Source: a virus. From it: DNA of 23,611 nucleotides. The notes beneath the pieces are model-generated. The model ran no database searches. It saw only the letters and a list, made by a program, of their open reading frames with translations, and was not told where the DNA came from. Positions within the stretch are counted from its first letter, which is position 1; every line of letters starts with the position of its first letter. Positions 2-23,611 of the stretch are shown here, one piece after another. The position numbers and the translations under genes were made by a program. The DNA is taken from positions 1 to 23,611 of IMG/VR virus record IMGVR_UViG_3300030102_002026. One strand, 5' to 3'.

Positions 2-337
2 CGCTTTCGCCGCGCAGACAACAGTAGGGTTGCCGGATGGGATCAGGTGCGCCAGCGCCTGATTGGAGATGATGGTTGCCCAATGCTTTTTGTTTTCAGC
101 GACTGTGTGGACACAATCCGCACGTTGCCAGTGCTTACGCACGACAAGCACAGGGTTGAGGACATTGACACGACTCAAGAAGATCATGCGGCGGATGACA
201 TTCGTTACGCTTGCATGGCGAGGCCGTTTCAGCGGCGCATACCTGAACTGGAAGAAGACCCTTGGCGACCGCCTACCATTGAAGAAATGATGGATGGTCT
301 GGAGCGTGCGTCTAAGCCGTCAGGCTGGAGAATGTAA
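2..337 (+). CDS. terL: Terminase large subunit, C-terminal fragment (partial at window start)
   Basis: The reading frame is open from base 2 and has lost its 5' end. It ends TAA at 335-337. The remaining 111 residues look like the end of the nuclease domain of a phage large terminase. A short hydrophobic strand (MLFVFSDCVDTIRTLP) is followed by EDHAADDIRYA at about 179-211; this D-x-x-x-D-D-x-R-Y signature carries the last acidic residue of the RNase H-like active site in TerL proteins. The C-terminal tail (PPTIEEMMDGLERA) is also typical. TerL is the ATP-driven motor and headful/end-cutting nuclease that packages DNA through the portal, which is encoded next. The stop overlaps the portal ATG by one base (TAATG). 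A start at 47 would be internal and artificial: the same frame continues upstream to the window edge with plausible protein sequence. Confidence 0.85.
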   Translation, partial: RFRRADNSRVAGWDQVRQRLIGDDGCPMLFVFSDCVDTIRTLPVLTHDKHRVEDIDTTQEDHAADDIRYACMARPFQRRIPELEEDPWRPPTIEEMMDGLERASKPSGWRM

Positions 338-2313
338 TGGCTGAATCCTACGCATATGACCGTGAGCCTAAAGGCAAAGGGGATCGTGCGCGTTACTGGA
401 ACGACCAGATCCGGCGGGCGCGTGGCTTTGAGGAGACGTGGCGCAACCGTTGCTATGAGATCATTGATCGTTATCGGGACGACAATCCTGATCGCATGAT
501 GCGCGATACGCGCATGAACATCTTTTATAGCAACGTGGACACGCTGAAGTCGGCTCTGTACTTCAAGACGCCGCGTCCTAAAGTACGGCGTCGTTTTCGT
601 GACAATGACCCTGTGGGCCGCACTGTGGCGACTGTCTTGGAGCGTGGGCTGCAGTACCAGCTCGATGTCTACAACTTTGACATGGCGGTGCGGCGGGCGA
701 TTGAGGACTATTTGATCGTTGGTCGCGGTGTTCTGCGGGTTACCTATGAGCCGGTGGTGGTCGAGGGTGATCCTGAGATGATCCCGGTGCGTCAACAGCC
801 AATCACTGGCATCGGTGAGGTTGCACCAGGCCAGATCGGTGATGTGCCGATTGGCAGTGCGTTTGTAGACGCTGAAGGCAACCAGGTAGACGCCGGCATG
901 GTCATGCAAGGCCCGATGGGGCCGTATGTGCTGGGCGAGCCGGTCGAATATGTCGGTGAACAGTCAATCCGGTGCGAATATGTGCATTGGGAAGACTTTG
1001 TTATGTCGCCGGCGCGTGGCTGGCCTGATGTGACCTGGATTGGCTTCCGTCACCTCATGACTAGGCAGGAACTGGTCGATTATTACGGCCCGAAAGGCGA
1101 AATGATCCCGCTGAGCTATCGCGGCGATGAGGGTGACGCCTACGAGGACAACAAGCAGCCGGATCGGGCTGAAATCTATGAAATCTGGGACAAGCGGTCA
1201 GGCAAGCAGATTTTCATTGCTGCGGACTATGATGAGCTGCTTGAGGAGTTCGATGATCCGTACAATTTGGATGGTTTCTGGCCTATTCCAGAGCCTCTGT
1301 ATGCCGTATCGACCACCGATACAACGCTTCCTGTCCCTGAGATCCTAACCTATGAAGATCAGCTCTATGAGCTTGATCTGATTACGCAGCGCATTGCCAA
1401 TCTGACAGAAGCGCTGAAGCGGCGCGGTGTATATGACGCATCGTTCCAGGAGCTGCAGCGTCTGGCGGGCGCATCGGACAATGAGTTTGTGCCGGTGGAC
1501 AACATGGCCATGCTGCAGGCTGGCGGCGGTCTTGCCAATGTGATGCAGGAAGCGCCGCTTGATAATCTTATCAAGGCTCTGGCGCAGCTCTACCAGTCGC
1601 GTCAGATAGTGATCCAGACGATCTATGAGATCACTGGCATCTCGGACATCATGCGCGGTTCTAGCGCCAGCCGTGAGACGGCTACGGCCCAGCGTATCAA
1701 GGGTCAGTTCGGTGCGATGCGCCTGGTCAACCGCCAGCGTTGCATTGAGATGTTCCTTGACCAGATTCTGGAGCTGAAGGCTGAGCTGATGGTCGAGAAC
1801 CTGGAGCCTGAGCTGCTTTCGCGGATTACAGGCGTTCCGGTATCGCCAGAGGCGGTTGCATTGATGCGTGATGAGCGTCTGCGTAGCTATCGCATCAGCA
1901 TCGACACTGACGAAAGCCAAGCTGTAGACAGCGCGATTGAACAGCAGCGCCGCACAGAGTTTTTGACGGCAACCGTGCAGTTTCTGCAGGCGATTGGCCC
2001 GATGGTCAGCTCTGGTGCCATTGGCTTTGAGCAAGCCAAGCAGATGCTGCTGTTTGCTGCCAGGGCGTTCCCTGGTGCGCGTGATCTTGAGGACACGCTT
2101 GAGGCGATCCAGCCCCCGCAGGGCAGGCCCAACCCGGCTGATAAATTGGTTGAGGTTGAAGCTGCCAAGGTTCAGGCGCAGGCAGACCAGGCCGCTGCCG
2201 ATGCACAGGTGAAGGTTGCACGTCTACAGCTCGATCAGCAGAAGGCGGCGCAGGATGCCCAGTTTAAGCAGCAAAAGCTGGAGATTGATGCGGCCAAGGT
2301 GGTGACGCAGTGA
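337..2313 (+). CDS. Portal protein (head-tail connector ring)
   Basis: A 658-residue protein, a usual size for portals of short-tailed phages. It starts at an ATG overlapping the terminase stop by one base, with GGAG about 7 bases upstream. The N-terminal third is charged and Arg-rich. Around residues 428-450 the segment IYEITGISDIMRGSS followed by ETATAQ is a pattern I recognise from podophage portals, lying in the region before the crown/barrel. The last 60 residues (about 600-655) are Ala/Gln/Lys-rich with heptad-like spacing and should form a long helix, as in portal barrel or C-terminal coiled-coil segments. The portal dodecamer sits at one capsid vertex, receives DNA from terminase and docks the adaptor encoded at 7106-7828. 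Position directly after terL is canonical. The gene overlaps the next by GTGA. Confidence 0.93.
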   Translation: MAESYAYDREPKGKGDRARYWNDQIRRARGFEETWRNRCYEIIDRYRDDNPDRMMRDTRMNIFYSNVDTLKSALYFKTPRPKVRRRFRDNDPVGRTVATVLERGLQYQLDVYNFDMAVRRAIEDYLIVGRGVLRVTYEPVVVEGDPEMIPVRQQPITGIGEVAPGQIGDVPIGSAFVDAEGNQVDAGMVMQGPMGPYVLGEPVEYVGEQSIRCEYVHWEDFVMSPARGWPDVTWIGFRHLMTRQELVDYYGPKGEMIPLSYRGDEGDAYEDNKQPDRAEIYEIWDKRSGKQIFIAADYDELLEEFDDPYNLDGFWPIPEPLYAVSTTDTTLPVPEILTYEDQLYELDLITQRIANLTEALKRRGVYDASFQELQRLAGASDNEFVPVDNMAMLQAGGGLANVMQEAPLDNLIKALAQLYQSRQIVIQTIYEITGISDIMRGSSASRETATAQRIKGQFGAMRLVNRQRCIEMFLDQILELKAELMVENLEPELLSRITGVPVSPEAVALMRDERLRSYRISIDTDESQAVDSAIEQQRRTEFLTATVQFLQAIGPMVSSGAIGFEQAKQMLLFAARAFPGARDLEDTLEAIQPPQGRPNPADKLVEVEAAKVQAQADQAAADAQVKVARLQLDQQKAAQDAQFKQQKLEIDAAKVVTQ

Positions 2314-6702: not shown

Positions 6703-7140
6703 ATGGCCGCGAAAGGTATCTTTTTCGAGCGCGAGCTGAACGGTGATATGCGCGATTTCTGCCGCATCTCTGTTCCTGGCGTCAGAGACGTATGGGAAGG
6801 GCCGGTTCGGCCAGAAGATTTGGCCCGCTTTCCTGAGCAATGGGCTGAGTACAAGGCCGGCAAGAAGAAGCCCAAGAAGAAGGGTGGCGGCTTGAGTGAG
6901 CTGCCTGGCATGACTGAGCCGCGCCGGATTGAACTTGAACTGGCCGACATTGAAACCATTGAGGAGCTTGCTGAGGCTGAGGAGCCAAAGCTGCGCCAGA
7001 TGGGTGAGCCTTATGTGCAGCTCAAGAAGATTGCTGAGCTGCAGATGCAAGCCAAGCCGAAACGCGCTGCCAAGAAAGCCGCGCCAAAGGTTGAGGAAGT
7101 AGCTGATGAGCCTGCTGACGATAGCGCAGACGGTAGCTGA
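6703..7140 (+). CDS. Lys-rich head protein with a helix-hairpin-helix-like segment
   Basis: 145 residues, with GGAGGA at 6692-6697 as ribosome site. The first 50 residues are compact (FFERELNGDMRDFCRIS). A basic linker KKKPKKKGGG occupies residues 54-63. Next comes LSELPGMTEPRRIELELADI followed by ETIEELAEA; this resembles the L-P-x-[MIL]-x-x-x-x-x-x-x-L-x-x-x-x-[IV]-x-T-[IV]-E-[ED]-L-A element found in small head-region proteins of many phages and recalls a helix-hairpin-helix. The tail (about 120-145) is Lys/Ala-rich then acidic. The adaptor gene begins inside its last 35 bases. A role in DNA contact or in head completion is possible but not shown. Confidence 0.75.
   Translation: MAAKGIFFERELNGDMRDFCRISVPGVRDVWEGPVRPEDLARFPEQWAEYKAGKKKPKKKGGGLSELPGMTEPRRIELELADIETIEELAEAEEPKLRQMGEPYVQLKKIAELQMQAKPKRAAKKAAPKVEEVADEPADDSADGS
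7093..7098 (+). promoter_or_regulatory. Ribosome binding site for the head-tail adaptor
   Basis: GAGGAA lies 7 bases before the ATG at 7106 and inside the upstream gene. It supports the adaptor start that overlaps the Lys-rich head protein by 35 bases in another frame. Confidence 0.6.
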
Positions 7141-7828
7141 CTACACCGGATTTGAGCGCCCGACCACCGTTGTCGGCAATACAGATCCGATTGCACGTCA
7201 GCTCCTGGTCATAATCAACCGCGAGGGCAAGCAGCTCATGCGGGCCACGAACTGGCCGATATTGATGAAGGAGCATACCTTCACCACGGTCAACGGCACG
7301 CAATCCTATGACTTGCCCAGCGACTTTGACCGCTTTGTCAGTGGCACGGCTTACAACCGCACCGACCTCGATCAGATGGTCGGCCCGATCACGCCACAAC
7401 AGTTTCAGGCTGACCGGCACGGCACAGTTGATTCTGGCATTGTTGATCGCTTTCGTCTCAAGGCAAGCAGCAACGCGCTGAAGTTTGACATCACGCCAAC
7501 GCCCAGCGCTGCCGACAGCATTGGCTTTGAATATCTGTCGAGCCACTGGAACCAGACGACTGGCGGCACCTCGCAGGCTGCTTTTGCTGCTGATAGCGAT
7601 GTCGGCATCCTTGATGAAACCCTGATTGAAATGGGTGCCACCTATCGCTTCAAGCAGGCTCATGGCTTGGCATACGATGAAGACTTCCGTCAGTACCAGC
7701 TTGAGCTGCGCCAGGCGATCAGCCGCTCTGGTGGTGCGCCGATCATCACGCTCGATGATGCGCGGCGCTACTTGGTCAGCCCTTACTCTTACAATCTGCC
7801 TGACAGCGGGTATGGGGTCAGCAGCTAA
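7106..7828 (+). CDS. Head-to-tail adaptor protein (phage SU10-like adaptor)
   Basis: 240 residues. The start overlaps the preceding gene by 35 bases; the stop shares one base with the next ATG (TAATG). The N-terminal helices (SLLTIAQTVADYTGFERP, then VIINREGKQLMRATNWPIL) and the following strand segment TFTTVNGTQSYDLPSDFDRF are the hallmark order of short-tailed-phage adaptors: a helical bundle with a W, then a T-x-x-G-x-x-x-Y-x-L-P strand pair. The central part (about 75-160) is strand-rich and the C-terminus (160-215) helical (ETLIEMGATYRFKQAHGLAY, then FRQYQLELRQA). Such proteins form a dodecameric ring under the portal and carry the nozzle and fibres. Family assignment is by pattern; length and position agree well. 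Confidence 0.83.
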   Translation: MSLLTIAQTVADYTGFERPTTVVGNTDPIARQLLVIINREGKQLMRATNWPILMKEHTFTTVNGTQSYDLPSDFDRFVSGTAYNRTDLDQMVGPITPQQFQADRHGTVDSGIVDRFRLKASSNALKFDITPTPSAADSIGFEYLSSHWNQTTGGTSQAAFAADSDVGILDETLIEMGATYRFKQAHGLAYDEDFRQYQLELRQAISRSGGAPIITLDDARRYLVSPYSYNLPDSGYGVSS

Positions 7829-12056: not shown

Positions 12057-13250
12057 ATGGCGTACATCGGTAAATCACCTGACGGCACTGGCGTCCGCTC
12101 ACGTTTCTACTACACGCAGACCAGTGGTGGCGGCACTAGCGTCAGCGGCTCCAGCGACGACGGCACGTCACTTGCGTTCTCTGATGGTGCTTACGTCGAT
12201 GTATTCCTCAACGGTGTACTGCTGGTAGCTGGCACTGACTACAACACCAGCACAGCCAATACGATTGCTGGCCTAGCTGCACTGGCTAACGGTGATGTTG
12301 TTGAGGTGGTTGTGTATGACATCTTCACTGTGGCTGACACCGTGTCGTCGCTGAATGGCGGTGCGTTTTCTGGTGCGGTGACTGTGCCGCAACTTAATGC
12401 AGACAACATCCGCATCGACGGCAACACCATCAGCAGCACCGACACGAATGGCGACATCACGCTCGACCCGAATGGCACGGGCGACACCATTGTTGCGTCG
12501 GGTAATTTGGGGATCAATACGGCTTCGCCATCAAAAGTTTTAGATGTGCGAGATAACGACGCAACAGGAACCACAACAAGTTCAAATCGTGTGGCGTTGT
12601 TCGCAACTAATGGAACCGGAAAAGACGCCCACATTACCTTTAGCAACTTGGTCGACAGCCCAGCAAGCATCGGCAACAAGGGTGCGCTTTATTTCGACTA
12701 TAACAACACAGAACGTATGCGTATCACCAGCGGCGGCGAGGTTCTTATTGGCACAACGTCTGGCGGGAGCAGCAGCCGGTTGCACCTTAAAGGTGCTGCA
12801 ACGCTTTGTGTTATGCAAAATGATGACGCAAACGGTGGCACATATCAAACAACAGTTCTTTTTAGGAATAGTTCCGGTACTCCTGTTGGCACAATTAAAT
12901 CGAACAGCACTTCCGTTGCATATAACTCCGCATCCGACTATCGCTTGAAAGAAAACGTAGCTGACATGACCGGCGCGATTGCTCGTGTGAAGACACTTGC
13001 ACCCAAGCGGTTCAACTTCATCGCAGACGCCGACACGACCGTCGATGGCTTCCTCGCACATGAGGCGCAGACTGTTGTGCCGGAAGCTGTTAGTGGCACA
13101 CACAACGAGGTTGATGAAGACGGCAACGCGATCATGCAGGGCATCGACCAAAGCAAGCTAGTTCCGCTACTGACCGGCGCACTGAAAGAAGCCATCGCCA
13201 AGATTGAGACACTCGAAACCAAGGTCGCCGCACTGGAGAACGCATCATGA
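12057..13250 (+). CDS. Tail fibre/spike with C-terminal S74 intramolecular chaperone
   Basis: 397 residues; ribosome site GGAGAGG just before ATG 12057. The N-terminus (MAYIGKSPDGTGVRSRFYYT, then FLNGVLLVAGTDYN and VVEVVVYDIFTVADTVS, to about 100) is a small attachment domain common in marine phage fibres. The middle holds shaft blocks DITLDPNGTGDTI, LGINTASPSKVLDVRD and NTERMRITSGGEVLIGTT. The end is a peptidase S74 domain: SDYRLKEN with Ser293 and Lys298 as the self-cleavage pair, then L-A-P-K-R-F-N-F, GFLAHEAQTVVPEAV, DQSKLVPLL and a final heptad coil IAKIETLETKVAALENA. S74 domains trimerise the fibre and then cut themselves off before Ser293, leaving a mature chain of about 292 residues. 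All the hallmark residues are present. ATGA overlap with the next gene. Confidence 0.92.
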   Translation: MAYIGKSPDGTGVRSRFYYTQTSGGGTSVSGSSDDGTSLAFSDGAYVDVFLNGVLLVAGTDYNTSTANTIAGLAALANGDVVEVVVYDIFTVADTVSSLNGGAFSGAVTVPQLNADNIRIDGNTISSTDTNGDITLDPNGTGDTIVASGNLGINTASPSKVLDVRDNDATGTTTSSNRVALFATNGTGKDAHITFSNLVDSPASIGNKGALYFDYNNTERMRITSGGEVLIGTTSGGSSSRLHLKGAATLCVMQNDDANGGTYQTTVLFRNSSGTPVGTIKSNSTSVAYNSASDYRLKENVADMTGAIARVKTLAPKRFNFIADADTTVDGFLAHEAQTVVPEAVSGTHNEVDEDGNAIMQGIDQSKLVPLLTGALKEAIAKIETLETKVAALENAS

Positions 13251-14340: not shown

Positions 14341-14520
14341 ATGAATGAAATAAATTTTACATCGGCAAAATATGTGGCTGTTGATGGTTCTAATGTTAGC
14401 ATCACAGTAGTGATTGATGGCATCACAAGTTCAGTTCCTCTCGACCCAGCCAACCGCCACTACGCAGAAATTCAAAAGCAAGTTGCTGCCGGTGAATTAA
14501 CAATCGCTGACGCCGACTGA
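14341..14520 (+). CDS. Small fibre-associated protein (59 residues)
   Basis: Two bases after the fibre stop, ATG 14341 to TGA 14520. The 59 residues begin MNEINFTSAKYVAVDGSNVS and end with VPLDPANRHYAEIQKQVAAG and a short acidic tail. The V-P-x-D-x-x-N-R-H-Y-x-E-I-x-x-x-V-x-x-G pattern is a common small phage protein found just after fibre genes; its function is not established to my knowledge, though a fibre-assembly role is often assumed. The ribosome site is weak, so translation may be coupled to the fibre gene. It shares one base with the next ATG (TGATG). Confidence 0.75.
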   Translation: MNEINFTSAKYVAVDGSNVSITVVIDGITSSVPLDPANRHYAEIQKQVAAGELTIADAD

Positions 14521-14720
14521 TGAAGCTGACGATGGAACCCGTACTCAAAACCCAGATGGAACTCGAAGCGCACGAGAAGGAGTGTGCTATCCGCTACGCT
14601 GCTGTCCAAGAGAAGCTCGACGCCCTCGACAAGCGCATGTGGCGTCTTGAGGCGATGATCATGGGGAGTACGATTCTGGTTGTGGCTATGGTCGTCACAG
14701 TATTTATGGGAATGAATTAG
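14520..14720 (+). CDS. Coiled-coil protein with C-terminal membrane anchor (XhlA-like, lysis candidate)
   Basis: 66 residues. A charged N-terminal helix with heptad-like spacing (EKLDALDKRMWRLEAM, about 31-46) is followed by one membrane span (STILVVAMVVTVFM, about 49-62) at the very C-terminus. This order of hydrophilic coil then terminal span matches hemolysin XhlA-type phage membrane proteins that work with holins. No second span, signal sequence or lipobox is seen, so it is not a typical multi-span holin or lipoprotein spanin. No endolysin is in the window. It has no nearby Shine-Dalgarno; the one-base overlap with the upstream stop suggests coupled translation. It could alternatively be a small internal virion membrane protein, because ejection genes follow. 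Confidence 0.65.
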   Translation: MKLTMEPVLKTQMELEAHEKECAIRYAAVQEKLDALDKRMWRLEAMIMGSTILVVAMVVTVFMGMN

Positions 14721-14721
14721 T

Positions 14722-16053
14722 ATGTCTACTAACATAAGTGAACAAGACAAAGCTGTTCAAAAACAGATGCAGGAACAGGCCAAACGCACCTCTACTCTGC
14801 AAGAAGGTGCGAAGATAAAGCCTGAAGATCAGGAGGTACAGACTGACGAGTTACTGACCACTGATCAAAAACTAATCGACGATCCCGTAGATGTTAGAAA
14901 GGGAGATGACATTAAGTCTGTAGATCAGGATGCTCCTAAAGAGTTTGATCCCGGAAGATACGATGCAGAGAGAGCCGCGCCAAAGGTGGGGAAAGCAGAC
15001 GCAGCAAAGGGCAAAGCATCTGAAGGCGCACTTATGGAAGCAGCACAGGGCAAAGTCTCAAAAGAGGCTCTTGCCGTAGCTGCAACACAAGAGCTTGACC
15101 CGAAGGCTACTACTCGTTACCAGCTTGCAGAACTATTCAAAGGCATCGAAGAGGGTGGGCCTCCCCCCGCATGGGCTGCACCGGCTGTACGACAAGTAAC
15201 CGCAGTCATGCAACAGCGTGGTTTGGGATCATCGTCTATGGCTGCTGCTGCTGTCATGCAAGCTATGATGGAGTCGGGCATCCCGATTGCTGCCCAAGAC
15301 GCACAAAAATATGCAGCTATCCAGTTGCAAAACTTGAACAACGAACAAGCTGCTGCGTTGCAAAACGCCGCCGCTGTGTTGCAAATGGACATGGCAAACC
15401 TTAATAATCGTCAGCAGGCTGCTGTGAATAACGCTAAAGCATTTTTGACGTTTGATGTTCAAAATTTAACAAACGAACAACAATCAAACACGCTTAGTTA
15501 TCAGACAAAAGCACAAGCTCTTCTTTCGGATGCTGCGGCGCAGAATGCTGCAAAACAATTCAATGCCAAGTCTGAAAACGAAATCCAAACATTCTTTGCC
15601 GAATTAGGTACAAGCGTAGAGTCTGCAAACATTCAGCGCGATCTGGCTATGAAGCAGTTTAATCAAAATCAGTCAGTAGCTGTACAGCAATTCAACGCGC
15701 AGATGGACGCACAGGCAGAACAATTTAACGCCAATATGCGTCTTGAGATAGATCAAAGCAATGCTGTCTGGCGTCGAAATGTAAACACACAAAATACAGC
15801 GCAGCAGAATGACGCTAACCGTCAAAATGCAATCAACCTGCTCGGTATTCAACAAAACGCTCTGAACAATCTGTGGCAGAAGTATCGGGACAAGGCATCA
15901 TGGGTCGTTAAGATTTCCGAAAATTCTCGTGATCGTGCCCACAATGCCGCCATGCAGGCTGCCGCATTCAAACAAAACGCTGATCTGTACAAACTAGAAT
16001 ACAAAAACTATTTGTTCACTAACGCTATTGATAAAATTTGGGGCACTGGATAA
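14722..16053 (+). CDS. Internal virion (ejection) protein with 11-residue repeats
   Basis: 443 residues. The first 150 are charged and low in hydrophobics (Lys/Glu/Asp/Gln-rich), probably flexible. Residues 155-190 include a Pro/Trp segment (GGPPPAWAAPAVRQVTAVMQ) and an Ala/Met-rich helix. Residues 191-377 are seventeen contiguous 11-residue repeats, mostly with Asn at position 3 (for example LQNLNNEQAAA, QFNAQMDAQAE, QFNANMRLEID), expected to form a long helix. The end has NLWQKYRDKASWVVKISEN and a basic helix. I recognise the QFN...WRR-x-V-N-T...NLWQ-x-x-R-D series from internal proteins of marine short-tailed phages. It likely forms part of the core ejected with DNA. It is first in a run of five such genes. 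Start ATG is one base after the previous stop. Confidence 0.8.
   Translation: MSTNISEQDKAVQKQMQEQAKRTSTLQEGAKIKPEDQEVQTDELLTTDQKLIDDPVDVRKGDDIKSVDQDAPKEFDPGRYDAERAAPKVGKADAAKGKASEGALMEAAQGKVSKEALAVAATQELDPKATTRYQLAELFKGIEEGGPPPAWAAPAVRQVTAVMQQRGLGSSSMAAAAVMQAMMESGIPIAAQDAQKYAAIQLQNLNNEQAAALQNAAAVLQMDMANLNNRQQAAVNNAKAFLTFDVQNLTNEQQSNTLSYQTKAQALLSDAAAQNAAKQFNAKSENEIQTFFAELGTSVESANIQRDLAMKQFNQNQSVAVQQFNAQMDAQAEQFNANMRLEIDQSNAVWRRNVNTQNTAQQNDANRQNAINLLGIQQNALNNLWQKYRDKASWVVKISENSRDRAHNAAMQAAAFKQNADLYKLEYKNYLFTNAIDKIWGTG
15292..15852 (+). repeat. Seventeen tandem 11-residue (33-base) coding repeats
   Basis: Residues 191-377 of the 443-residue internal protein divide without gaps into 17 units of 11 residues. 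Thirteen of them have Asn at position 3; two have Asp, one Ser and one Phe. Early units alternate in type (N-L-N/T-N-x-Q, then N-A-x-A), giving a 22-residue super-repeat; later units share Q-F/S-N. At the DNA level the copies are diverged, so this is an old protein repeat rather than a recent tandem duplication. Confidence 0.85.
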
Positions 16054-16055
16054 CA

Positions 16056-16646
16056 ATGAGTTGGCTATCTAAGGCATTAAAGAACGACACGCTTAGAATC
16101 GGCCTGACCGTGGCAGGAGCCGCGTTGGCTGGTAAGTATGTGTTTGGGGACTACGAGGTTAGTAATCCGTACAGAGTAGAGGCGTTCGGAGAAGCTGCAA
16201 AATATAGCTACACCGGCACCGACATCAGCAGTAGAGCCTTAAATTTCTTAGGTGTAAAACCGTTCGGGGCTACCTCCGTGGGACAGTTTGTAAGTCCTGT
16301 GACAGATTTTGTAAAGAGCCTGAATCTAGGCACAGGTAAAAGTCTTGCAGACTTGATTTCGGGTTTTGGAAAAGCTCCCAAAGCGGCAAAAATAAGTCCT
16401 ACCGCCATCCGTACCGACACTAATTTTATGAACAGTCAAGCACAAATGATTCCTGTGGGTGGCAATGGACGTGTTGGGGGCATGCTTGCCCAAGATGCAG
16501 TGCAACAGTATCTTGCCAGAAGGGGACGAATATTCGGTATGCCCCAGTCTAAAACCGCACAGGCAACTATCAGTCTTGCAGGTTCAGGATCGTTGGCTCC
16601 TACCACTGCGTCTAAAAAACTTGCACGTAGTCGTCTTGTAGATTGA
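16056..16646 (+). CDS. Internal virion protein candidate with hydrophobic N-terminus (196 residues)
   Basis: The start at ATG 16056 is chosen because it follows the upstream stop (16051-16053) by two bases and gives MSWLSKALKNDTLRIGLTVA; an ATG at 16038 would add six residues and overlap the upstream gene without a ribosome site. Residues 13-30 (TLRIGLTVAGAALAGKYV) form a short Gly/Ala-rich hydrophobic helix that could insert in or lie on a membrane. The middle has aromatic and Pro/Gly-rich segments (NFLGVKPFGATSVGQFV, FVKSLNLGTGKSLADL). The C-terminal 60 residues are basic and Ser/Thr-rich (KTAQATISLAGSGSL, KKLARSRL). I do not recognise a family. Its size, place and hydrophobic N-terminus suit the smallest of the internal ejection proteins. 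Confidence 0.7.
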   Translation: MSWLSKALKNDTLRIGLTVAGAALAGKYVFGDYEVSNPYRVEAFGEAAKYSYTGTDISSRALNFLGVKPFGATSVGQFVSPVTDFVKSLNLGTGKSLADLISGFGKAPKAAKISPTAIRTDTNFMNSQAQMIPVGGNGRVGGMLAQDAVQQYLARRGRIFGMPQSKTAQATISLAGSGSLAPTTASKKLARSRLVD

Positions 16647-16655
16647 GGATAAATT

Positions 16656-17204
16656 ATGCAGGATATGATAAGCGCTTTAGCTGTGCCCCCCGGAAACTCT
16701 CTGACAGATGCACCGGGCAAGTGGCCGTGGGAAAAACCCGCTCGTTTTCCGGACCCAAATGATGCCATTGACTTTATCACCGACGACATAGCTAATGGCC
16801 CCACTCAAAACGATATGCTTCGTCTTATGATGGCGGGTATTACTGTTGAGGAATTGGTAGAACAAATTTCATTCAAGGGCTTTATGGCAGGGGCAATCAG
16901 CCCGGATGTTGCAGAACTTATCAAGCCTGCAATAGGAATTTTTTTGTACGGACTTGCAATTGAAAATGGATTTGAGCCGCAGATGCTAATTGACGAAAGT
17001 CCACCCGAGGGTGCCGTGTCTGACGCCACGTTCTTTGAGACTGCAAAACTTCGCAACCCAGAGCTATACGCTGCAATGACTGAAGAGATGAATCGTCAGA
17101 CACGAATGGGTACAGACGACATTCGCGTAGAAGAGAAGCCTGCTGATCTTAGCAAGTCATTTATTGCCGTCGTACCAGAGCGGCCAGAGGAGACACAGTC
17201 GTGA
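16656..17204 (+). CDS. Structural protein of unknown function in the ejection module
   Basis: 182 residues with GAGGA at 16645-16649 as ribosome site. The N-terminus is Pro/Trp-rich (GKWPWEKPARFPDPNDAIDF), then comes a helical core: DMLRLMMAGITVEELVEQIS, FMAGAISPDVAELIKPAIGI and FLYGLAIENGF (residues 50-110), moderately hydrophobic but with charges, so probably not membrane spans. The end is acidic and probably flexible. Proteins of this pattern occur beside very large internal proteins in marine short-tailed phages; no biochemical role is known to me. The stop overlaps the start of the 1210-residue gene (GTGA, 17201-17204), suggesting linked expression. Confidence 0.7.
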   Translation: MQDMISALAVPPGNSLTDAPGKWPWEKPARFPDPNDAIDFITDDIANGPTQNDMLRLMMAGITVEELVEQISFKGFMAGAISPDVAELIKPAIGIFLYGLAIENGFEPQMLIDESPPEGAVSDATFFETAKLRNPELYAAMTEEMNRQTRMGTDDIRVEEKPADLSKSFIAVVPERPEETQS

Positions 17205-20200
17205 TTGATGTAGGTGGCTTGGCAGACAACCTGTTGATTACCGGATTGCAAATTCTCGGTAACAAGGAACAGACACGCAGAAAAGAAGAAGAGGACGCAG
17301 CGGTTGTTGCGGCGGAAGCTGCAAAACAACAGGCAGAACTGACCAAAGCTCTCAGAACAGAAGAGGCAAAGGGCGTACAGGCACGCATAACAGCCCAACG
17401 ACAGTCTGAATTGGACACCATGAAAGAACTACGGATGTCTAGGATATTCGAGGGATTGGTCCTTACGCCTAATGGGCAAATGATGCCTTTGGTCTACGAT
17501 ATGTCCACGCAGCTACCTCCCGATCTCCCTATCGTTGCTACTAAAAATAAACAGGGTAAGTACGATTACCGTCCTGACTTTAAGAGGATGGCAGGTCCGT
17601 ATGCCAACCGAGATGTCGTTCCTATTTACAGGGGCAATAGGGGCACGGGAACCAAGCGTGATTTGAATGCCACTGAAGGATTCGGATGGGAGTTGACTGC
17701 TGGTTACAATCAAGTGGGAACTTATAATCCTGCGAATGATACTATCAATATGTTTGACAAAGATCAAAACATGATGATGGGCAACCTTATTGAGACCACG
17801 ATACCTGTTGTTGGAGGTGTAGGAAAGCCTGAACTGTCTCTATCACAAGCCATGGACCTTTCTGTAAAGTCGCGTCAGCCTTTGCTTCTTAGCACTCAAC
17901 TTACTTCGGCCTTTACTGGACGACCTATCGGCGCGCCTACCCTGAAAGAAGTTGCAGGATATAAACAGCCTGCAACGACGCGGACAGTACCGATTGTGAA
18001 AAACGCAAAGATTGGAGATACAACATATCCGATTCTTCATGCAGATGACTTTGCAAAGAAGGTTGCTGAAGAAGACCTTGATCCCCGAGATGTCTTTCAT
18101 CAGCCGGGAGCGATTACAGTAGACTCTCGTCTCATTACACAGGGCATGAAGAAGGCGGACATTATCGCTTTGGGTGGTGATGTCACTATCTCAAGCACAG
18201 TTCACCCCCGCGACAAGAAGGTGACACGAGACTTAGTAGACATTTACTTGCCTCATGCGTTTAAGAATGCAGAGGGTGTTCAACAGGACATGCTTGACAA
18301 CGTCACCTTTGCGGAGGGGACGGAGATACTAAGTCGTATGGGACTATCATACGATGATGTTATATGGCAAGAGTATGCTGTGACCACTGTGAACGGCGAA
18401 ATCACAGTGGAGGACATGATCAGCAACAACACGCCAAAGGGCACAGAAATAAACCGACATCTCGTCTTGTTCGAGACTATGGAAGACGGCAAAAAAGTAA
18501 ATAGGGAGATGCAGTTCTTTACAAAGGGACAGGCAGAAAAGTTCATACTTGAAAACCCAGATGCCAAGGGAGAATATGTCGGTCTAGCCACCATGAACAG
18601 CTTCACTGGTGATGTTAAAAGCGTTGCTGATCCTACCGGTAGAGATGTATTGCTACGATTCGCTCAAGGGACAGAAGAGTTTCGCAGGCATCCCGACGGC
18701 GTTTTAGAAAGTGAGGCTACGGACGCAGAAAAGCAGGTGGCTATAAGCCGTCAAGACGCCACAGTAAATACCATAACGGGAACGATAGAAAGCACTACAG
18801 GCGCTGCAGGTGAAACCTACCGCGCAAAGATCGAGGCTGATCACAAGCATCCCTTGCGTCTGGGTAACAGACAAGACGGTATGCTGCTTTCGCACAGAAA
18901 GACCGAACAAAAAGCGGCTGCACTAAGCACCATGCACGGCAAACTTGCACAGCCGGGAGTCATAGAGGAAATAATCGAGTCAGAACAAAGTAATCAGTAC
19001 GTGATGACGCTTGGTTCAGATATTGTAAATAACGCTGCTGCCTTTCTGGCATCGTTGGGCGCTAATCGCGATCCTGAACTTGGAATGCCCCTGCCGCAAA
19101 CCAACAGTGTGTACAAGCATATTAAAGACACGTACCCTCTGTTTTTCCAAATACCCGGAATGGAACAGTATATCATAGGTGTTCAACGCGCCAACATAAA
19201 GAAACGAGAGGACAACGCAACCACGAGCGCAAGTGGTGATTCTACGACCGCATCGTCAAGTGTCGGTGCAAATCCGGATGAAGATAACGCTCTTCCGGGT
19301 GGTCCCGCAGATTCCGCATCTCCCATAGTAACACTTAACATCGACAAAATACCGCCCAAAGTTTCTGCGTTTATAAATTCAGGAGAAGGCTACGAGGGCC
19401 GATTGTACTCTATGCTTTTAGGTGCAAACGTAGGTGAAGGTCAGGTAACACAGGGAGCAATTAATCAAACCACCCTCGACATACAGGGTATGATCAATGT
19501 TAAGCGTGACTTGGCTCTTCTGCCTACCCAGACAGCTATACCGGGCACATTTGATCCTGCTACGAACACGTATTTTGGTGAGGCGCTACGTCAGGAAGCT
19601 CTCCCGCAAAGCAGTCAAACCCGTATAAACGCCCTTATGAAACTTGACACCACTGCGTCTGGAATTCGCGTAGACGGAAAAGCTCTGACGATGCTAGACG
19701 TAATGAGTGATCACATAAACGGTTTACGTGATATCCAAGAAGCCGATCATTTGGCGCTTGCCAACACGCTTGTTAATTCAGTGACAAGCCTGCAGGAAGG
19801 CATTGATCTTGTAGAGCCGTTTATTATAGCAGCCACACAAGATGCAAATAGCATGAACCCAACGATGTACTACTCCCCCGCCGTCTTAGACGCGATGGAA
19901 GCGCGAGGAATTGGGGAGATGTTTAAAACTCGTCGCACAGAAGACAAGCGTCTGGCTGAATTAGAGCGTTTGGACGGCGCTGTAGAGTTAGCAGCAGACG
20001 CTCAAAAAGTTCTCTCGGGCTACATTGATCCAAACAATTCTAATCAGTATACCAGCCCCACATTCGTTGGCAACTTAGAGCTTGCATTAGACGCAGCCCC
20101 CGCTGTGTTCAGAGGTGTGACTGGTGCCTTGGGCAACTTCTTAAACACAGCTTCCGGTGCTGATATTGTTCGTCTATACGATCAGAACATCGATTCTCTA

Positions 20201-20833
20201 CTGGATGAACTTGCAGCAGACAATCCTGATATGCGGATTGATTCGGCAAGTGACTTAGGTCGAACCGGAAGACAAAAAGTAAAGGCAATTCTTAACGATA
20301 TTGCAAAAGAAATCGATGACGCCGGTAATAACGAAGCCAAGCGTCAACTTGCAGTTCGCCAGCTTAACATTGTCACCCTTGTCTACAAGCTGTCCAGTGT
20401 GTTGCAGGGCGGAACCGGCGGTAGAACCATTTCTGACAATGACGTGGCAATCATTCTGCAGGCCATGCGGCAGAGTCCGTTGTCCACCGCTGATCAACAA
20501 GCAGCAGTTGTACGAGAGATCGTAAAACTGGCCCGAGAGATCAAGGTCCGCGCTGAACACTTGTCCTCTACTGATCCGCATAAAGTTGCAGCTTACATGT
20601 ACTTCACTGGCCTGTCGGCAATGACGGATCAAGGTGTATATCACAAAGAATTGACTGCAAGTAATGTTGCAGCAAGACTTACAAGACCCGGTAGAGGACC
20701 ACAAGTATCTGAAGAACAGCTTGCTGCCATCGTGGCTAACATGAGAGTGCAGGGAGGCGATAATACAAGTCTTGCGGACAAACCCGCAACACCGGAAGAG
20801 CTTGAAAAAGCACGACAGACACTTCAAAGGTAA
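17201..20833 (+). CDS. Large internal virion / ejection protein (1210 residues)
   Basis: Starts at GTG overlapping the upstream stop, with AGAGGAG about 9 bases before it. Residues 1-20 are hydrophobic (VGGLADNLLITGLQILG). Residues 23-75 are a highly charged Lys/Glu/Ala/Gln coil. Residues 80-650 are mixed helix and strand without a motif I know. A Ser/Thr/Asp-rich linker lies at about 670-705. Residues 710-1180 look mainly helical (TLVNSVTSLQEGIDLVEPFI, LDELAADNPDMRID, VRQLNIVTLVYKLSSVLQ). I looked for lysozyme or transglycosylase signatures, as in T7 gp16, and found none I would defend. Size, helical content and position match the large ejection proteins of short-tailed phages, which leave the capsid first and build a channel across the cell envelope. 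The exact role is inferred. Confidence 0.75.
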   Translation: MIDVGGLADNLLITGLQILGNKEQTRRKEEEDAAVVAAEAAKQQAELTKALRTEEAKGVQARITAQRQSELDTMKELRMSRIFEGLVLTPNGQMMPLVYDMSTQLPPDLPIVATKNKQGKYDYRPDFKRMAGPYANRDVVPIYRGNRGTGTKRDLNATEGFGWELTAGYNQVGTYNPANDTINMFDKDQNMMMGNLIETTIPVVGGVGKPELSLSQAMDLSVKSRQPLLLSTQLTSAFTGRPIGAPTLKEVAGYKQPATTRTVPIVKNAKIGDTTYPILHADDFAKKVAEEDLDPRDVFHQPGAITVDSRLITQGMKKADIIALGGDVTISSTVHPRDKKVTRDLVDIYLPHAFKNAEGVQQDMLDNVTFAEGTEILSRMGLSYDDVIWQEYAVTTVNGEITVEDMISNNTPKGTEINRHLVLFETMEDGKKVNREMQFFTKGQAEKFILENPDAKGEYVGLATMNSFTGDVKSVADPTGRDVLLRFAQGTEEFRRHPDGVLESEATDAEKQVAISRQDATVNTITGTIESTTGAAGETYRAKIEADHKHPLRLGNRQDGMLLSHRKTEQKAAALSTMHGKLAQPGVIEEIIESEQSNQYVMTLGSDIVNNAAAFLASLGANRDPELGMPLPQTNSVYKHIKDTYPLFFQIPGMEQYIIGVQRANIKKREDNATTSASGDSTTASSSVGANPDEDNALPGGPADSASPIVTLNIDKIPPKVSAFINSGEGYEGRLYSMLLGANVGEGQVTQGAINQTTLDIQGMINVKRDLALLPTQTAIPGTFDPATNTYFGEALRQEALPQSSQTRINALMKLDTTASGIRVDGKALTMLDVMSDHINGLRDIQEADHLALANTLVNSVTSLQEGIDLVEPFIIAATQDANSMNPTMYYSPAVLDAMEARGIGEMFKTRRTEDKRLAELERLDGAVELAADAQKVLSGYIDPNNSNQYTSPTFVGNLELALDAAPAVFRGVTGALGNFLNTASGADIVRLYDQNIDSLLDELAADNPDMRIDSASDLGRTGRQKVKAILNDIAKEIDDAGNNEAKRQLAVRQLNIVTLVYKLSSVLQGGTGGRTISDNDVAIILQAMRQSPLSTADQQAAVVREIVKLAREIKVRAEHLSSTDPHKVAAYMYFTGLSAMTDQGVYHKELTASNVAARLTRPGRGPQVSEEQLAAIVANMRVQGGDNTSLADKPATPEELEKARQTLQR

Positions 20834-20841
20834 CAGTAAGC

Positions 20842-23611
20842 ATGGCTGAAAACGAAGATACGCAAACTCCTGAAGAACAAGCACAGGCGTACGCAGCGCA
20901 AACACCTCCGCAACAGCAGGACTTCGTAGACCCTGCAGGGCGGTACGCTGCTCCGGGTGAGACAGTCACTATCGGTCCCGGTGGCGTGTATTCGCCCTTC
21001 CGGTTCACTCCTCTGTATGACGACCCTCAAAAGGATGCGTCGGGTAAAGTGACTTCGTTCCAGACACGGCCCTTCAAAGCCGTTCTGGGAGAGGAAAGTG
21101 TAACACTTGATCCGTTCCCTTTTAGTGGTGCTGCATTTATAACTAATCGCAAAAACCTTGTGGACAATGATGCTGCTTACGAAAATGCTATCGTTACAGC
21201 TACGGAAGCCTTCAAGGCCAATAACGTGGATGTCGAAAGTGACGAATTCCGCGAGATGATTATGCGTCAAACGGGTTATTATCGTAACCCACGGGGAACA
21301 GAGGCTACAAACTTAGAGCCTATACCATTTGTATTCCCCGAAGGCGAGGACACATTTGAAAATCGCATGTTAGCACTGGATCGAAATCGTGCCCAGTCTA
21401 TATATCAACAATTCGACAACCCCGTTGACCCCTCGGAACCACTCATTTCGTCAACATCAGTGCCGTATTCTGCGATCACCAAAAGTCTCGTTGGCAACCT
21501 AGAGGCGGTAGAGGGATGGGAAAAAGTTAATCTTCCTAAGTTTGGACTAGACAGAAGCGAGGACGCTAACTCTAACAGCGTATTCATACAGGATCGATTT
21601 TTTGGGGGTGTAGGTCGATCAATCAAAGCTATGTTCGACGATGAAACTGCTGCACAAATGGCGGACGAGTCGGCCATGATTTTTGCCAGCAAGTTTGTAA
21701 AGTGGGCAAGGAAAAATGGCTTTGACGAGCGAGATATTGCCGGTGTACTCAAGCACAGACTTACTCTACCCGATGTGACTCCCGGCACACAGTTTTTGGC
21801 ATACGGCGAACAGTCTCTGCTGCGGAGTGCCGTGACTGAGTCGCTACGATTTGGAGCCGAGGCAAGTCTGTATCTTGCGGGTGAGGGTCTTGACGCAATT
21901 AATTTGTGGAATGACGAAGTAAAGTCAGACCTGTTCACGGGAAACTACGACATCAGTGCCCCGGCTGATCGTGAAGCAATCCTAGAGAGGTGGTTCCCGT
22001 CACGTAGTAAGTTGGTTCAAGATCAGTACGACGCATTGAATCTTGACTTGGATTATGTGGGCGCAGAAAGGGTTGCAAACTTCTACACATCTGCCCCCGG
22101 ACAACTCGTAGGCACAGCCATGATGGTAAAGTCTGCGGGTCAGCTTGACAAATTTCGCAAAACATTATCAGCCAATTCAGAAAGAAAGTTGTTTAACAAG
22201 TTTATAGCTGATCAACGCATCCTGTTTCCGGGTTCGAGCGAAGATGAAATAATTATGAAGTACAGAGAGATGCGAAGAAAGCAGGCATTCGGCTTTACCT
22301 TCAATCTCAACACCAAAGAAATACACGACAAGATTCTAAAAGCTCCGGGGATAGGCGCACCGACATCTGCCGCCCTTTCTGGGGCGTCTACAGTTGCCGC
22401 CTTTATAAACGGTGTTCGCACCAGCAATCGTCTAGTCGCAGGTATGCAACTAGAAGAAGCTACCCTGCGAGTCCATGCGCGTCCTGAAGTTCGTAGGTTT
22501 ATCGCTTACGGATCGGGTCGAAAAAAGGACCGTGCTGCAATATACGACAGAGCAAAGCAAGAGCAACGCAGTCTCACACAAGCAGAGGCAGTAGACGTAA
22601 AACTTCTGGACAGGGAAATTGACGCCTATCGCACAGAACTCCGCCTAATGATTGCGGAAACGTCTGTTCCAAAGTACATGCGTAGCGAAGCAGGAAAAGC
22701 GCTTGCTCGAATAGGCCGCGTACCGGGAACGAAATACGACTTGCTTACTTACTCTGGAGGTCTTGATCAGTCTGTAATCTTGACTGCGGCCACCGCATCC
22801 AGTGTCGCATCTGTCTATGGTGGTGACACAATGCTGTGGGACTTCTTTGGATCGGCAGGTGGACTGTTGGGCTACTCCCTCCGCAAGACTCCGGGAGGGG
22901 CTATAGATTTTGCCAACCAAGTAATGCGAGGCGAAATCGAATTTATCAATCCGCTAAAGAATCGAGGCAAGTTTCTCCGGAACGAAGTTCGTCTTGCTGA
23001 AAAACTAGTGGGTCAACTAGGTGCGTTTGACGACGAATTTCGTGCAGGAGTCATGGAGCGTATCCGTTATCACGACAATCTCAAACAGGAACTTGTCCGC
23101 GACGGTGTAGGCGGAGAACTACTCGAACGCTCTGCAGGACGCATCATGGGTCTCACCATCCTGCAGACTATCGAAGAAGGCTTGCGTGTGTCACTTGATG
23201 CTCCGGGTGCAGCGCAATTCAACGACAATGTCGCAAAAGCACTGCAAGAAAATCGCAACGCACAAGACCTTCTCCTTAACGATTTGCGTGGCGTCTTTGT
23301 AGCCATAGAAAACGTAGAGGGTTACAAGGATGCTGACACGCCAATAGGTAGACTGTACGACACTGTCAAGGCAGCCATTAATAACGGCGAAGCAAAAGTC
23401 CAACAACTTGACGACGACATGGAGCGTCTCAACATTGGTTTGGAAGATTACCTGTACGGCATCATCAGCAGCACTAGCAGCGTTGGTATGCAGCGTGTTA
23501 TGCACGAAGCCGACGACGCTCTGCCGGAACTGATAAACAGACTGACAGGAGAGGGCATCAGCTTCCTATCCGTTCAAGCAGCACAAGATCAACGTCGTAG
23601 AATCGAGCGTG
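20842..23611 (+). CDS. Large internal virion / ejection protein (partial, runs off the window)
   Basis: ATG at 20842, eight bases after the upstream stop, with AAGG at 20827-20830. I read the frame to base 23611 with no stop: at least 923 residues. The first 30 residues are Gln/Pro/Glu-rich. Residues 30-250 are mixed, with many Pro and aromatic residues. From about 260 it is mostly helical (ADESAMIFASKFVKWARKNG). Hydrophobic helices occur near 509-530 (TSAALSGASTVAAFINGV) and 645-682 (ILTAATASSVASVYGG, then MLWDFFGSAGGLLGYSL), which could insert into membrane during ejection. A long Arg/Glu-rich helical part follows (EFRAGVMERIRYHDNLKQEL). No catalytic motif recognised. It pairs with the 1210-residue neighbour as a second giant internal protein; the domain that might identify it could lie beyond the window. 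Confidence 0.75.
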   Translation, partial: MAENEDTQTPEEQAQAYAAQTPPQQQDFVDPAGRYAAPGETVTIGPGGVYSPFRFTPLYDDPQKDASGKVTSFQTRPFKAVLGEESVTLDPFPFSGAAFITNRKNLVDNDAAYENAIVTATEAFKANNVDVESDEFREMIMRQTGYYRNPRGTEATNLEPIPFVFPEGEDTFENRMLALDRNRAQSIYQQFDNPVDPSEPLISSTSVPYSAITKSLVGNLEAVEGWEKVNLPKFGLDRSEDANSNSVFIQDRFFGGVGRSIKAMFDDETAAQMADESAMIFASKFVKWARKNGFDERDIAGVLKHRLTLPDVTPGTQFLAYGEQSLLRSAVTESLRFGAEASLYLAGEGLDAINLWNDEVKSDLFTGNYDISAPADREAILERWFPSRSKLVQDQYDALNLDLDYVGAERVANFYTSAPGQLVGTAMMVKSAGQLDKFRKTLSANSERKLFNKFIADQRILFPGSSEDEIIMKYREMRRKQAFGFTFNLNTKEIHDKILKAPGIGAPTSAALSGASTVAAFINGVRTSNRLVAGMQLEEATLRVHARPEVRRFIAYGSGRKKDRAAIYDRAKQEQRSLTQAEAVDVKLLDREIDAYRTELRLMIAETSVPKYMRSEAGKALARIGRVPGTKYDLLTYSGGLDQSVILTAATASSVASVYGGDTMLWDFFGSAGGLLGYSLRKTPGGAIDFANQVMRGEIEFINPLKNRGKFLRNEVRLAEKLVGQLGAFDDEFRAGVMERIRYHDNLKQELVRDGVGGELLERSAGRIMGLTILQTIEEGLRVSLDAPGAAQFNDNVAKALQENRNAQDLLLNDLRGVFVAIENVEGYKDADTPIGRLYDTVKAAINNGEAKVQQLDDDMERLNIGLEDYLYGIISSTSSVGMQRVMHEADDALPELINRLTGEGISFLSVQAAQDQRRRIER

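Follow-up and report, generated by a model that had tools for sequence, protein, structure and literature searches.

The H protein of phage phiX174, whose coil has a solved PDB structure, forms a decameric alpha-helical tube of 17 nm; Asn, Gln or Arg occupies 18 of the 23 positions in its lumen (PMC7354561). Sf6 gp12 is also a decamer, with a tube-like stem in an assembly of approximately 15 nm, and the H tube fits this stem (PMC4755594). The internal proteins of T7 and of DEV/N4 refold into a periplasmic tunnel (PMC11784390, PMC10925440, PMC12633501); DEV gp72, in particular, forms a ring of 12 inside the virion and later a 9-mer tunnel (PMC10925440). In the searched literature (open-licence papers), phiX174 is the only phage in which hendecads have been linked to ejection. 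We focused our attention on a widespread marine hendecad-repeat protein without a family name, found in HMO-2011-type phages, which together with their relatives are common in marine viromes. This protein may bear on how the short tails of HMO-2011-type phages bridge the host envelope.

The stretch of DNA analyzed, hereafter the window, comprises bases 1-23,611 of a 26,985-base IMG/VR virus record. It is a podovirus late module, containing the portal, an SU10-type head-tail adaptor, a tail protein and fibre genes (among them a Peptidase_S74 chaperone domain), and then proteins that belong to no known family. In the parent record, a run of N lies right at the window end (23,611), within the giant gene of the cassette described below. 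The following features are referred to in the text:

337..2313, + strand, portal protein (context; phrog_12082, 1.7e-149)
7106..7828, + strand, head-tail adaptor of the SU10 type (context; PF24175, 2.7e-9; phrog_6013, 5.5e-47)
14520..14720, + strand, 66-aa ORF with a hydrophobic C-terminal segment, a possible holin-like gene as judged from its sequence, just 5' of the repeat gene
14722..16053, + strand, ORF of the 443-aa hendecad-repeat protein, a proposed ejectosome (internal virion) protein
15169..15936, + strand, register-locked region, residues 150-405, in which net length changes among homologues are multiples of 11 only
15169..15303, + strand, conserved upstream non-repeat anchor PAWAAxAxR..MxxRGLGASSMAA..PIAxxDA, residues 150-194 (alignment invariants P149, R166, G167, S171)
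15292..15852, + strand, 17 gap-free hendecads with Asn at position 3, residues 191-377
15292..15522, + strand, variable N-part with a 22-residue alternation (NLNNRQQAA / NAxAFLQMD), 7 units in the window
15523..15852, + strand, near-constant C-part of QFNA hendecads, 10 units in the window
15856..15936, + strand, downstream non-repeat anchor LWQxxRDxxxW...R, residues 379-405
16038..16646, + strand, cassette gene 2, 202 aa (65-260 aa in most relatives)
16656..17204, + strand, cassette gene 3, 182 aa (166-214 aa in nearly all relatives)
17201..20833, + strand, cassette gene 4, 1210 aa (309-1210 aa in relatives)
20842..23611, + strand, cassette gene 5, giant protein that continues past the window end

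The periodicity of the repeat was confirmed. Seventeen units run without insertion from residue 191 (base 15,292) to residue 377 (base 15,852), as the preliminary description had read them, and Asn occupies position 3 in 13 of the 17, which none of 20,000 shuffles matched in any phase. The four top lags in residues 191-377 were 22, 33, 11 and 44 (identity z of 4.9, 4.2, 3.9 and 2.9, respectively; BLOSUM z of 7.4 at lag 22). Against shuffles, the family-wise P was 0.0065 for lag 11 and below 0.0005 for lag 22, and the 22-residue alternation that had been noticed in the first half proved to be real. For the complete 443-aa protein, the strongest period was 11 (z 8.9), which was significant in no other tested window ORF. 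Moreover, the only DNA tandem repeat that TRF found in the window was a 23-bp array with a score of 32; as the window DNA is not a tandem repeat, the periodicity resides in the protein. It is also shared by the family: lags 11, 22, 33 and 44 were prominent in 73/73 homologues of the first set, usually as the top four, and the top Asn phase was position 3 in both halves of all 134 proteins.

The length of the repeat was measured between two ungapped anchors outside it (residues 150-194 and 379-405), with the window as the reference. In each of the first 74 proteins, the anchor distance differed from that of the window by a multiple of 11, and the same held, with exact multiples of 11, for all 128 unique complete homologues from IMG/VR, which fall into 44 clusters and gave differences of -22, -11, 0, 22, 55, 66, 77, 88 and 176. 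A further 21 homologues (12 genome contigs and 9 named phages) obeyed the same rule without exception, up to +374, corresponding to 51 units; three of them have weak anchor scores (<0.35), yet display the same Asn phase. The rule covers homologues with recognisable anchors, so that phage Y3, a remote relative without the downstream anchor, falls outside the length test. Unit counts across homologues ranged from 15 to 51, and the longest ones, with 41, 51 and 41 units (loci L190, L192 and L193), would measure approximately 68-84 nm if fully helical. When a third anchor was placed in the middle of the region, both parts were found to obey the rule separately, with one mid-anchor apparently misplaced (+8/-8).

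Outside the region, gaps in pairwise alignments were of arbitrary size: upstream, 16 of 468 were multiples of 11, and downstream, none of 37; inside it, 107 of 150 gaps were multiples of 11 before neighbouring gaps were summed. On a tree of the 44 clusters, the unit count changed at least 8 times (12 by parsimony), and if each change had random phase, the chance of all of them being in phase would be (1/11)^8 to (1/11)^12, or approximately 5e-9 to 3e-13. Sliding of an anchor by one unit is unlikely, because the anchors lack periodicity and most of them reach more than 0.5 of their self score. Altogether, these results show that residues 150-405 are a register-locked hendecad repeat, in which evolution gains or loses whole units only. 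The lock runs from approximately residue 150 to 405 (15,169-15,936), past the limits first drawn for the repeat, and such a whole-unit length rule is a rare and sharp signature of structural constraint.

The two parts of the repeat differ in how much they vary. In most clusters, the C-part comprises 10 QFNA units, and its range over all reliable cases is 9 to 14; ten units correspond to a helix of 16.5 nm (~17 nm), next to 17 nm for the phiX174 H tube. The N-part, which carries the 22-residue alternation, has 5 to 39 units, and its changes are usually even-numbered.

Over the 44 clusters, the repeat region contains no proline and 1.1% glycine, and Asn plus Gln account for 30% of it. Asn is found at position 3 in 70% of the cases; positions 10, 2 and 4, and additionally 1 in the N-part, are hydrophobic, positions 7 and 11 are charged, and positions 5 and 9 hold Gln, Ala, Asn or Ser. 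Plotted on an 11/3 helix, this pattern yields two nearly opposite hydrophobic stripes, between which lie a charged face and an uncharged amide/Ala face. In helix propensity, the repeat matched the coils of phiX174 H and of the Sf6 needle, but not the P22 tailspike and fibres. The AF2 model of a single chain is helical over residues 172-440, with helices of 34, 53 and 104 residues and low-confidence breaks near residues 206-212 and 266-269 (pLDDT 45-78, pTM 0.23); an earlier AF2 model, built with fewer sequences, has a single helix over 271-440 (170 residues). Flexible loops at these breaks would be unlikely, because no out-of-register net change occurs across them. The preliminary description had set a continuous coil against short broken helices; the latter were not seen, and the models fall short of establishing one continuous helix. 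The angle of the hydrophobic seam was 168 degrees here, as compared to 138-144 for H (expected 144) and approximately 150 for a trimeric needle (expected 60). Fitting the seam to an oligomer number was dropped as non-discriminating, given the disagreement between observed and expected values in this needle control.

In HMO-2011-type podoviruses, the late module closes with a conserved cassette of five genes, of which the repeat gene is the first. Behind it come a small gene (65-260 aa in most cases), one of approximately 180 aa, one of 309-1210 aa and a giant gene, an order established from the clusters readable that far, with few exceptions in automatic gene calls. Opposite-strand genes often come after the cassette, and lysozyme/holin genes lie 5' of the repeat gene in relatives. 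A cassette placed after the tail genes, with the giant gene last, at the end of the late module, is a layout of the ejectosome type. Among the giant genes, that of Slicky01 has matches to virion structural PHROGs, and LPD38 is found in that of HTVC033P. Other neighbours were also observed. In Pelagibacter phage HTVC115P, a toxin-activating lysine-acyltransferase, not expected in an ejection-like cassette, is annotated directly after the repeat gene (L200 3739-4188), and Pelagibacter phage HTVC033P has, just upstream of the repeat gene, a putative ferrochelatase and two 2OG-Fe(II) oxygenases, placed between the fibre genes and the cassette (L083 6661-8775).

Homologues were found in at least 26 phage records and in hundreds of IMG/VR contigs, and relatives detected by tblastn include HMO-2011, HTVC033P, CRP roseophages, CHOED, MQM1, Slicky01, phiM6 and Rhizobium phages. 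HMO-2011 gene 25, CRP-1 gp35, HTVC033P gp56, CHOED_13, MQM1_018, phiM6_25 and the Slicky01 protein are true homologues that share anchors, register and cassette with the window protein and differ from it in unit count (16-33 in named phages). The window protein itself has the RGLGASS..PIAxxDA and LWQxxRD anchors at whole-hendecad spacing that characterize the family. At its C-terminus, the homologue from HMO-2011 has a glycine-rich stretch and then a CWVAREVYG...DPRW tail that was not seen in the window protein (L082 ~12700-12909). None of the relatives is annotated as an internal virion protein, the term used in the preliminary description; those with a name are called hypothetical protein or are misnamed. 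Spurious names do occur on these Gln/Asn-rich phage proteins: one homologue of the repeat protein is called 'huntingtin' (L198 1933-4524), and a neighbour in the cassette 'nuclear receptor coactivator 2' (L170 14473-15123).

Pfam, PHROGs and NCBIfam hold no family for the repeat protein, apart from marginal PHROG matches of a few homologues. A profile search of the PDB returned chance-level helical matches only (V-ATPase subunit H, KMP-11) and none to the phiX174 H protein, and Foldseek against the PDB gave nothing at E < 1. Against viral models, Foldseek gave significant matches, including W8FPS3 (460 aa, presumably the relative from CHOED), and no lead outside the family. A profile search for a more distant relationship to SU10 gp21/gp22, a putative DNA injection protein, was negative, with relatives too few for a profile. 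The searched literature contained neither virion proteomics nor a structure of any family member. Genome-contig matches were all from uncultured organisms, mostly MAG contigs. The phage contigs MHASMcontig_807657 and 84293 (L184-L187) are binned in both a Flavobacteriales MAG and a Neomarinimicrobiota MAG and, since the same contigs sit in two different MAGs, host assignment from these is unsafe.

The reading that we favor, with a probability of roughly one half, is that the repeat protein is an ejectosome protein whose hendecad helices assemble as a hollow conduit barrel. Copies of the protein would be packaged in the capsid near the portal and exit first through the tail; parallel helices with a right-handed drift would then assemble side by side into a hollow alpha-helical barrel, lengthening the short tail and guiding the DNA. 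The tube itself would be built by the near-constant QFNA part (~10 units, 17 nm), and the variable 22-residue part may set its reach or stack as an extension. Asn-3, beside a hydrophobic stripe, could hold adjacent helices in register; the Gln/Asn face may point into the lumen and line it, as is seen in phiX174 H. Presence in the virion, oligomeric state and lumen lining are what we infer for this protein, whose placement among ejectosome proteins comes from gene position and not from homology.

In favor of an ejection conduit are the periodicity, the multiples of 11, the Asn phase, the lack of Pro, the stripes and amide faces, the H-like helical propensity, the AF2 helices, the five-gene cassette, the PHROG and LPD38 matches of the giant genes, and the occurrence of period 11 in H. 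Against it stand the lack of homology to H, Sf6 gp12, T7 gp14 or T7 gp15, the absence of period 11 from the ejection proteins of T7, DEV, N4 and Sf6 and its presence in scaffolds, a range of 15-51 units that is wide for an envelope-spanning part, and the modest AF2 confidence. From the preliminary proposal of an ejection-tube wall made of hendecad helices, the register-constrained, gap-free helix is retained, with its helix propensity, its lack of proline in 44 clusters and its ejection-type gene context. A helix length tuned to the envelope is not, as 15-51 units, approximately 25-84 nm if fully helical, represent more than threefold variation; nor did we find evidence for likeness to apolipoproteins. 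The hendecad region, changing in whole units only, is a good candidate for a wall element of a DNA tube across the bacterial envelope.

The wide range of unit counts would be better suited to a spacer inside the head than to a conduit of fixed reach, and the packaged protein might sit as a helical bundle or ring that encircles the portal or lies above it, a core adapter or spacer whose repeats organise the core or the DNA spool, with other cassette proteins acting as the conduit. Pre-ejection forms are known for DEV gp72 (PMC10925440) and PhiM1 EP3 (PMC11440229). However, a ring protein does not need a gap-free register of 17-51 units, and a ring by itself leaves the amide-rich faces and the near-constant 10-unit part unexplained; we regard this possibility as rather unlikely. 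Less probable still is a solid coiled-coil shaft, trimeric or similar, serving outside the head as a tail needle, plug or fibre stalk. The repeat gene does lie downstream of tail-fibre genes, whole-unit indels are common in fibre shafts, and the seam geometry does not discriminate against a trimer, but the P22-type needle coil of Sf6 has, by the same test, a period of 7/14 and not the 11 of the window protein, which thus departs from a heptad-trimer needle. Moreover, the place in the cassette beside the giant gene is that of internal proteins, and 30% Asn plus Gln, with charged and uncharged faces, would be unusual in a solid core.

It could also be argued that the register says little about structure, the quantised indels being purely mutational products of unequal recombination between DNA repeats of 66 or 33 nt. 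A 33-unit relative (L132) indeed has DNA copies 60-80% alike at 66-nt spacing, and N-part changes are mostly even in units. Yet, with no DNA tandem repeat in the window, recombination could hardly keep phase there, and the 44 clusters display no out-of-register net changes despite frequent arbitrary indels on both sides. The supply of whole-unit changes may be mutational, but the absence of other changes needs selection, and a purely mutational origin is, in our view, improbable. Finally, instead of being alpha-helical, each 11-residue unit could correspond to a single beta-solenoid coil, with its Asn forming a ladder. Asn ladders and whole-coil indels are typical of beta-solenoids, and the strong hydrophobicity power at 164 degrees is also expected from beta alternation; this signal, however, is equally the second harmonic of a two-striped helix. 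A helix propensity equal to that of known phage coils and different from that of beta proteins, together with 1% Gly, no Pro and only helices in AF2 in place of a beta-rich composition with turns, makes a solenoid very improbable.

Returning to the conduit barrel, a more specific version of it, which we put forward tentatively and as somewhat less probable than the barrel in general, is that abundant ocean podoviruses independently evolved an H-like tube, namely an amide-faced hendecad barrel with a core of constant length and a modular 22-residue extension that changes length in whole units. If true, these phages would hold a natural length series of DNA conduits, and the 15 to 51 units offer such a series for asking whether ejection conduits act as rulers.

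Comparison with known systems was extended to the period itself. Using the same test, phiX174 H was the only tested ejection protein with a strong signal at 11 (z 5.4); P22 gp20 gave a weak one (z 2.7), and T7 gp13-16, Sf6 gp11-13, DEV gp72/gp73 and the N4 proteins examined gave none. The scaffolding proteins LUZ24 gp63 (z 5.1; L175) and SU10_08 (z 3.9; L176) also have period 11. As it occurs in these two scaffolds and is missing from the ejection proteins of T7, DEV, N4 and Sf6, period 11 is not specific to ejectosomes. In gene layout, the cassette is comparable to the ejection genes of T7 (13-14-15-16) and P22 (7-20-16). T7 gp14-gp15-gp16 and DEV/N4 gp72-gp73-gp71 likewise combine small genes with a giant gene, but their proteins have no hendecad repeat, and T7 gp14 and gp15 are not homologous to the repeat protein, hhalign having detected no homology to them or to Sf6 gp12. 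Sf6 gp12 and P22 gp20 are podophage ejection genes of similar size in a three-gene cassette; gp12, in contrast, lacks both period 11 and homology to the hendecad family. As to phiX174 H, the hhalign probability of homology is 0.3%, and the resemblance would be an analogy at most. H belongs to a tailless ssDNA phage and has 3 hendecads followed by 11 heptads, in contrast to 15-51 hendecads in a tailed dsDNA phage here. Nevertheless, both have Gln/Asn-rich hendecads in a long proline-free helix, which in H is part of a proposed DNA conduit through the cell wall (PMC7354561), and the protein described here may provide an independent case for the idea, raised by phiX174, that amide-lined helical tubes suit the transit of DNA.
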